Notes under the pieces: generated by a model
Database searches by the model: none
The model's input: only the letters and a program-made list of their open reading frames with translations
What the model was told of the DNA's origin: nothing
Shown here: positions 34,040 through 34,621 of the stretch, in pieces
How positions within the stretch are numbered: the first letter of the stretch is position 1
How the letters are laid out: each line of letters opens with the position of its first letter
Translations under genes and position numbers: made by a program
Assembly: GCA_021774735.1 (NCBI GenBank)
Contig: JAJFIS010000045.1
Location: 1-49,116 of the forward strand
DNA: 49,116 nucleotides
Source of the DNA: Alphaproteobacteria bacterium
GTDB taxonomy: Bacteria > Pseudomonadota > Alphaproteobacteria > Sphingomonadales > Kordiimonadaceae
Direction: 5' to 3'

Positions 34040-34163
34040 TCTATAGTCCCCATATGCCAAAATAAATTAAACCAATTCTGTTTGCACCCTATCGTGTCGA
34101 GGACTGAAATATAAGGATTTTATGAAACTGCGACGAAATGTGTAAAAAATACGGTGGGCGGCC
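34040..34163. other. Intergenic region, no gene seen
   Basis: This stretch lies upstream of the symporter gene and before the RpoH-like promoter. It is AT-rich and shows no clear coding or repeat content; promoter elements for the symporter on the minus strand should lie here but I cannot place them. Confidence 0.4.
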
Positions 34164-34191
34164 CTTGAACTTCAAAGGATCAATACTATCT
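34164..34191 (+). promoter_or_regulatory. RpoH-like promoter of the small-ORF/RNA locus
   Basis: CTTG (34164-34167) and ACTATCT (34185-34191) are 17 bases apart, six of seven -10 positions matching CYTATNT. The geometry equals that of the hsp20 promoter. Transcription would start near 34198. The leader then holds a GAACGA/TCGTTC inverted repeat (34210-34230) and a GCAGG-AAAA-CCTGC hairpin (34268-34281) just before the ORF. Confidence 0.5.
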
Positions 34192-34299
34192 GTAACGTAT
34201 AGAAGAAAAGAACGACAATAATGATCGTTCAAATGACAGCAACAGGGCATTAGCTCTGATTAACAAAGCAGGAAAACCTGCAACAAAAATGAGGATAAA

Positions 34300-34425
34300 A
34301 TGACAGATTTTGTAACATTAGTGCATGGCATAAATTCCAAAGCCGACTATAAATCGCAGCGCGCCCCAGAGATTTTGCGCCGTCGCCGCCGCCGTCAGCA
34401 GAAGCTATCTTCACTGACCGCGTAA
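34300..34425 (+). CDS. Arg-rich small protein (41 aa), possibly DUF1127-like
   Basis: The frame starts MTDFVTLVHGINSKADYKSQ, contains six arginines in a row and ends QQKLSSLTA. GAGGA stands 6 bases before the ATG. I do not recognise the protein firmly. The run of Arg recalls the start of DUF1127 proteins, but the conserved C-terminal DIG motif of that family is missing. It lies between an RpoH-like promoter and a structured RNA, the arrangement known for DUF1127 genes and CcsR RNAs in Rhodobacter. Alternatively the six Arg codons may serve as a leader peptide that senses arginyl-tRNA. Confidence 0.5.
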   Translation: MTDFVTLVHGINSKADYKSQRAPEILRRRRRRQQKLSSLTA

Positions 34426-34439
34426 AATTTTAACAGTTT

Positions 34440-34536
34440 GGTCTGCAGCGTAACTTAATTTACGGTTTCCGGATGGAAACTGCAGACCCGCCGGACCAAG
34501 GGCATCCCCCCTCCCATCCCCCCTCGCCCTTGGTTC
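34440..34536 (+). ncRNA. Structured RNA: three-way junction and C-rich loop hairpin
   Basis: P1 pairs 34440-34448 with 34480-34488 (9 bp, perfect). Inside it, P2 pairs 34449-34453 with 34460-34464 around a 6-base loop, and P3 pairs 34466-34470 with 34475-34479 around GGAU. Almost no base is left unpaired at the junction. Next, 34493-34503 pairs with 34526-34536 (11 bp, one G-U) around a 22-base loop of only C, U and A (34504-34525), holding CCCCCCUCCC and CCCCCCUC. C/U-rich loops of this kind can pair with Shine-Dalgarno sequences, as in cuckoo/CcsR RNAs. A U-rich stretch (CUAUCUUUUCUU) follows. Confidence 0.6.
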
Positions 34537-34621
34537 GGTTCTATCTTTTCTTAACTTTCCTAATCCAATTTAATGCAATATCCAGTGGCGAACTTTTGCC
34601 GCTTTAGCTATATTTGCTTTC

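Follow-up and report, generated by a model that had tools for sequence, protein, structure and literature searches.

Small RNAs of the CcsR/cuckoo group have C-rich loops, and the traits of CIN1/CcsR-cuckoo loci include RNase E-dependent release of the sRNA from a precursor and binding by Hfq. As far as the available text of two reports describes it, CcaF1 of Rhodobacter sphaeroides is co-transcribed with CcsR1-4 and acts together with RNase E, and the CcaF1-CcsR1-4 locus has an RpoHI/RpoHII promoter and a terminal terminator (PMC10253847, PMC8307010). In rhizobia, the accessible sections on the alpha-r14/NfeR1 sRNAs depict several hairpins, each with an unpaired, C-rich anti-Shine-Dalgarno (anti-SD) stretch; NfeR1 has a conserved promoter stretch upstream, an RpoD signature, and three hairpins with an identical CCUCCUCCC (PMC10746234). 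A DUF1127 gene of Sinorhizobium is presented, in the portion of that report at hand, as being under uORF and C-rich, rut-based control; the same text describes what DUF1127 proteins generally do as unclear (PMC12218461).

Here we describe a locus in a 49,116-nucleotide stretch of DNA (the window), whose source is a member of the Kordiimonadaceae, and its relatives throughout that family. With CcaF1-CcsR1-4, as outlined in the text available, the Kordiimonadaceae unit shares the order of its parts, a small protein gene followed by sRNAs or hairpins, with a terminator at the end in most loci, and the CIN1 trait of exposed C-rich loop hairpins after the ORF is found in the family as well (30/31 loci have one or more CCC hairpin loops). 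In contrast to the CcsR/cuckoo loci, the Kordiimonadaceae protein is not a DUF1127 protein, the loop motif is not CCUCCUCCC, and a given locus has hairpins that are unlike one another; in comparisons among the Kordiimonadaceae loci, the unit also has a fixed upstream box and a GACAG motif in its 5′-UTR. NfeR1, in the sections accessible, is similar in having C-rich loop hairpins and a conserved stretch upstream, but its hairpins carry the identical CCUCCUCCC that is absent from all 27 loci compared here, and only the Kordiimonadaceae unit includes a protein-coding segment. The Sinorhizobium uORF/rut attenuator, as far as the text at hand goes, resembles the unit in its small ORF, its C-rich RNA and its link to stress (PMC12218461); however, that attenuator controls its neighboring gene in cis, whereas the Kordiimonadaceae unit is portable and in most loci ends with a terminator.

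The window locus spans positions 34164-34539 of the plus strand and consists of a promoter box, an ORF with six consecutive arginines, a three-way junction, and a hairpin with a loop of C, U and A; the initial annotation had its start right, but its end, given as 34536, should be 34539. Upstream lies a candidate activator site, TGCGACGAAATGTG (34129-34142), with what may be its second half, TACGGTGGG (34150-34158), about two helix turns away. The RpoH-like promoter box (CTTGAA-N15/16-ACTATCT) is present exactly where CTTG-N17-ACTATCT had been annotated, at 34164-34191, with CTTG at 34164-34167 and ACTATCT at 34185-34191. The 5′-UTR contains AACGACA (34211-34217) and GACAG (34235-34239), of which GACAG is common in family loci, and a Shine-Dalgarno sequence, GAGGA (34291-34295), that is conserved before family ORFs. 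The 41-codon ORF itself, with its six arginines in a row, was confirmed at 34300-34425; it encodes an Arg-rich micro-protein of 41 aa that matches the profile of a family of the form MFTxLx..RRxRRxxR..AA. Two RNA elements follow: HP1 (34440-34488), a three-way junction whose outer stem is like the relatives' first hairpin, and HP2 (34490-34539), which ViennaRNA folds into a hairpin of 14 bp, not the 11 bp first reported. The description of the 22-nt HP2 loop, AUCCCCCCUCCCAUCCCCCCUC at 34504-34525, was accurate: it contains only A, U and C and includes CCCUCCC.

Junction and hairpin together have a minimum free energy of -47.8, whereas shuffles average -29.3 (z -5.43), and 0/200 dinucleotide shuffles of the plus strand are equally stable. 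Because the minus strand of the same stretch reaches only z -2.62, with 3/200 shuffles as stable, the plus strand is the better RNA. The initial annotation had also considered that the structures might be one copy of a dispersed genomic repeat; this is ruled out, as the 141-base stretch has no second copy in its own genome, where the only match besides the stretch itself is 17 bases long and attributable to chance (E 2.2). No Rfam family reaches the gathering score within the window, and cmscan at permissive thresholds (E up to 10 around the site) returned nothing relevant; in 18 related loci, the gathering score gave only a tRNA, in one locus, and permissive thresholds again gave no relevant match. 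Weak Rfam matches to GRIK4, ST7-AS2, RRE and RsmY were taken as chance. Within its family the window copy is divergent: it has the weakest promoter, its loop falls outside the family model of HP2 (R1), it has one CCC hairpin loop only, plus the junction, and a terminator scan finds no canonical terminator in the locus before rnhB.

Profile searches combined with direct reading place the small-ORF family in 29/29 Kordiimonadaceae genomes, at 31 loci. The profile (A1) was made from 13 relatives' small ORFs of the form MFTxLL...RTWRRxRRxxRLARVxxAA, taken from the DNA before rnhB, and the count of 29 comprises its matches, two genomes that were read directly (G003, G010), and G002 and a second copy in G007, which were fetched. 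Members with weak profile E-values (G009 0.026, G013 0.037, G002 0.017, G003 0.18) were accepted on layout, that is, on their start, Arg tract, SD and surroundings. A profile is needed to see this family, as a single-sequence search with the 41-aa ORF gives a best non-self E of 0.19. With a leave-one-out profile, the window ORF ranks first of 631 window ORFs (E 1.4e-5, next 0.29); with the second copy of its own genome left out too, its E is 3.1e-5 and that of the next window ORF 0.46.

The ORF is coding, with purifying selection in the seven equal-length members tested; dN/dS is ~0.1-0.3 in these seven genes, among which the window ORF is not included. When six close pairs are pooled, the in-frame pS is 0.442 and pN is 0.126, versus 0.128/0.240 and 0.141/0.232 in the shifted frames; in two distant pairs, synonymous sites have reached saturation. 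Conservation of the peptide covers its start as well as the Arg tract, and GAGGA is found within the last 20 nt 5′ of the ORF in 25/27 loci. Searches of Pfam (with 25 aligned members) and PDB gave no match at E up to 1, and PHROGs and NCBIfam (the latter without DUF1127) gave stray weak matches only, the best at 0.012 and 0.042. The alignment of these members (A6) holds 25/27 loci, with the near-identical L132 and L144 left out and L209-L212 retrieved later; two other alignments hold 22/27 loci then known (A2) and 26/27 (A3). Thirteen of the 25 micro-proteins in A6 end in Ala-Ala, which resembles a ClpXP-type degron and could mean rapid turnover.

Most loci have the promoter box CTATTGAA-N16-CCTAMATTA (TTGAA-N16-CCTAMATTA). 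A TTG[AT]A-N15/16 candidate is present in 29/31 loci, all except L135 and L211 (26/27 in an earlier locus set), and in 25 of the 29 promoters at least 7/9 positions match CCTAAATTA/CCTACATTA; the window is lowest, with 4/9 -10 positions, and its site has p 0.014 versus random 200-nt stretches. The groES loci of the same genomes have TTGAA in all 25 scanned, a count that is partly by design because the scan targets TTGAA-like boxes, with N16 in 24 and -10 forms such as CTTACATAG, CATACATAG and CCTAAATAC. This groES set is 25/29 loci, with clipped or partial loci excluded. All groES sites have p ≤0.021 and 9/25 exceed the 99th percentile of the background; the background pool includes some family promoters, so these p values are conservative. 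The reading of the window promoter as RpoH-like holds insofar as the box and spacing resemble those of groES promoters in the same genomes, but this is a likeness of sequence only, which does not prove RpoH and is compatible with an RpoD reading. In the groES locus of the window's own genome (L202), the promoter CTTGAA-N16-CTTACATAG is followed by a TTAGCACTC/GAGTGCTAA inverted repeat, which we take to be CIRCE-like.

Further upstream, a TTTGCGRYGAARCGTGC box lies 35-36 bp 5′ of TTGAA in 27/29 promoters (scored as TGCG[AG], with the match nearest -36 chosen), and TGCG[AG] is present in 29/29 upstream stretches versus a mean of 4.5 in mononucleotide shuffles. The fixed distance suggests that this box is a candidate site for a dedicated activator. 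In several loci it is visible as two TGCGRYGAA/TGCGGTGGG-like halves ~21-22 bp apart. The pattern was also tried as a regulon finder and rejected as not specific, with 10 matches versus 4 in the control in the window's own genome. Downstream of the promoter, GACAG occurs in the last 140 nt 5′ of the ORF in 26/27 loci, versus 4.5 expected from dinucleotide shuffles. The longer ACGACAG is seen in 18/27 loci as part of a 5′-UTR motif, (A)ACGACAG; it is possible that this motif is a protein-binding or processing site.

The 220 nt 3′ of 27 ORFs contain 136 C-runs versus 9 G-runs. Plain C-runs are not above dinucleotide shuffles (CCCC 101 vs 125.6, CCCCC 27 vs 51.4, CCTCC 15 vs 16.7), and because the shuffles hold as many C-runs or more, the C-richness is a matter of composition on one strand. 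The features that do rise above this composition are particular strings and the exposure of the C-runs. The CCTAGCCCC string, found in 17 loci, is expected in 0.2 by shuffling. The mean unpaired probability is 0.84 for C inside C-runs and 0.39 for other C, and the 31 loci have 144 accessible C-runs versus 56 in dinucleotide shuffles; the number is above the locus's own shuffle mean in 27/31 loci, the others being L135, L209, L210 and L211. At least two CCC hairpin loops are present in 27/31 loci. Folding of 12 loci left two without clear structure, L139 (z -1.12) and L148 (z -1.48). An intrinsic terminator is found in 23/31 loci, versus 1.0 expected from mononucleotide shuffles, and 17 of these 23 terminators carry CCC in the loop.

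In the HP2 hairpins of relatives, the loop stretch CCCTGA(C)CCTAGCCCC is nearly invariant while the stems vary, an invariance that is partly selection, because the 15 HP2s in this alignment (A5) were picked for clear similarity from 23 extracted. In these 15 chosen loci, double changes are seen in 7/15 pairs, compared with a shuffle mean of 3.5, and the covariation score reaches 0.272, versus 0.02-0.12 with slid partners; a slide of +1 still has 6 pairs with double changes, and the number of further pair types, 14, does not stand out from the 12.7 of shuffles (115/500). A model of this hairpin, R1, matches 16 of 246 order genomes, all of them Kordiimonadaceae from two genera; it has 0 matches in 385 class genomes, a set whose sole family genome is the window's own, and an empty result of this kind, without a known positive, carries little weight. 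At E up to 10, R1 misses the hairpins of the window, L155, L139 and L146, and its matches to some others are weak. The window loop, CCCCCCUCCCAUCCCCCC, keeps the C-tract pattern, not the sequence, of the relatives' loop, CCCCUGACCCUAGCCCC. Because the loop sequence is not kept, the equivalence rests on position and layout; by these and by its C-tract pattern, we take the window HP2 as a putative divergent counterpart of the relatives' CCCCUGACCCUAGCCCC hairpin.

The first hairpin presents a different picture. Its outer stem, GGTCTGC/GCAGAYY, is common to the window and eight aligned relatives, but their alignment (A7), for which the relatives were picked by similarity, does not support the stem by covariation (term +0.16). 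The two neat inner arms of the junction occur in the window only, which is the sole representative of its genus among the genomes searched. Of the three-way junction that had been annotated as an addition to the known architecture, the outer stem is thus shared with relatives, and the clean three-way form is particular to the window.

We compared the predicted binding of loops to start regions with that to stretches inside genes, using the first ATG as the start, which keeps the test free of SD bias. For 41 window genes, the window loop is predicted to bind start regions more strongly than it binds stretches inside genes (p 0.032), and the same test gives a start-region preference for a CCUCCC-type loop (p 0.041), both p values being uncorrected for five queries. 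The canonical loop CCCCUGACCCUAGCCCC, which is without CCUCC, has no gene-start preference (p 0.38). Start-region targeting is plausible for the window loop and for loops of the CCUCCC type; for the canonical loop it is unproven.

With moderate confidence, we favor the idea that this is a dual-output stress locus of the Kordiimonadaceae, which yields a micro-protein and 3′-derived C-loop sRNAs acting on G-rich ribosome-binding sites. The conservation of the unit, the coding selection on its ORF, the covariation in the relatives' HP2, the exposed C-runs and the groES-like promoter are what we observed in its favor. We envision that stress would induce transcription from the heat-shock-type promoter, perhaps in an RpoH-dependent manner and probably with an activator at the upstream box, to make one short transcript. 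The 5′ part of this transcript would encode a 36-51-aa arginine-rich micro-protein, probably RNA-binding, and the 3′ part would form one to four hairpins with single-stranded C-rich loops, probably cleaved off and released as sRNA(s). The C-loops would then pair with G-rich ribosome-binding sites, with the predicted effect of lowering the translation or stability of many target mRNAs. The function of the basic protein would probably be to aid RNA processing, stability or annealing, by analogy with what CcaF1 does for CcsR in Rhodobacter.

Several other explanations must be weighed against this one. The initial annotation offered two, a divergent member or an analogue of the CcsR/cuckoo system, and they fare differently. 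By test, the unit works like CcsR loci but is not a member, because two defining features fail, DUF1127 and CCUCCUCCC. A Pfam scan matches 0/25 A6 members to DUF1127, and hhalign of the family profile versus 19 DUF1127 domains gives a probability of 0.5% over 7 columns, on which basis we rejected a DUF1127 origin of the micro-protein; the exact CCUCCUCCC is found in 0/27 loci (as is CCTCCTCCC), the nearest strings having 1-3 mismatches. It is therefore very unlikely that this is a true but highly divergent cuckoo locus with a shortened DUF1127 protein and a drifted motif, even though the order of parts is the same, the protein is basic, and the window C-loop is one mismatch from CCUCCUCCC. The term analogue fits, as a small basic ORF and C-loop hairpins occur in 29/29 genomes and one hairpin covaries. 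In another explanation the unit is a cis attenuator, in which the ORF would serve as a translated leader, with read-through into rnhB being controlled by the hairpins or by a C-rich rut stretch. The rnhB gene next to the window locus is most similar to that of Kordiimonas laminariae (68% identity), and in 26/28 family genomes in which rnhB was found, the unit precedes that gene by 0.3-3.2 kb, in the same orientation. This proximity, the run of Arg codons, the structured RNA adjoining the ORF, the excess of C over G 3′ of it, and the absence of a canonical terminator before rnhB in the window are all consistent with attenuation, for which the Sinorhizobium DUF1127 gene, with its C-rich rut-based control as described in the text at hand, provides a parallel (PMC12218461). 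However, the unit is unlinked to rnhB in 2/28 genomes (G002, G009), has extra copies elsewhere in G000 and G007, is separated from rnhB by >1 kb in 11/26 linked genomes, and is followed by intrinsic terminators in 23/31 loci; in addition, the peptide is conserved at its start and not just in the Arg tract. Fixed linkage without an intervening terminator thus fails family-wide, although the window itself is linked and has no canonical terminator. Across the family the unit is not a fixed regulator of rnhB, and we regard attenuation as improbable.

A simpler explanation is that the locus is a stress-induced gene for a small basic protein, and that the hairpins of its 3′-UTR merely protect or terminate the mRNA. 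Purifying selection on the protein and the terminators that follow it agree with this. In contrast, the HP2 loop is nearly invariant in the 15 chosen loci while its stems vary, and several distinct loops retain exposed C-runs, although a protecting hairpin needs no fixed loop; we consider the protein-only explanation unlikely, if slightly less so than attenuation. That plain C-runs do not exceed shuffles and that DUF1127 is also absent from a few other genomes of the order weigh somewhat against the dual-output locus and its independent origin (below), and in favor of the protein alone.

The distribution of the unit bears on its origin. A1 matched 41 of 246 order genomes at E 0.01, 17 of them outside the family (best 1.6e-5), and seven of those 17 that were read (L156-L162) lack the unit; A6 gave 6 matches outside the family in 385 class genomes, and all six, when read, showed no such unit. 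DUF1127 is over the cut-off in 145/385 class genomes and in 0/29 family genomes, with one sub-threshold match (G027). The class set contains four more genomes from this order, and these, too, have no DUF1127 match, so the absence may be older than the family. We tentatively propose that the dual-output locus may be an independently evolved module that replaces DUF1127/cuckoo, combining RNA-binding Arg micro-proteins, a multi-hairpin C-loop sRNA, a heat-shock-type promoter and a dedicated activator site in all 29 family genomes. If so, it would represent a second, convergent origin of a 'micro-protein plus anti-SD sRNA' operon. An unrelated protein in a CcsR-like position, in a family without detected DUF1127, would offer a natural experiment on whether the basic peptide, the exposed C-loops or the stress promoter is the essential feature. 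The locus also brings to light one family of micro-proteins and one of RNAs without a match in our Rfam, Pfam, PDB, PHROGs and NCBIfam searches, and no published description of the Kordiimonadaceae unit was among the matches listed in a literature search mostly without subscription papers.

Two genomes have two copies of the unit, G007 and the window's own. The second copy in the latter (L155/L213) is on contig C14 at 173597-173719, with matching promoter and 5′-UTR features, and is followed by a C-rich hairpin with the loop CTCTCCCCTTCCCCTAAACTAT and then an intrinsic terminator. This copy adjoins, on the upstream side, an ORF whose sequence resembles that of a putative hydroxymethylglutaryl-CoA lyase.
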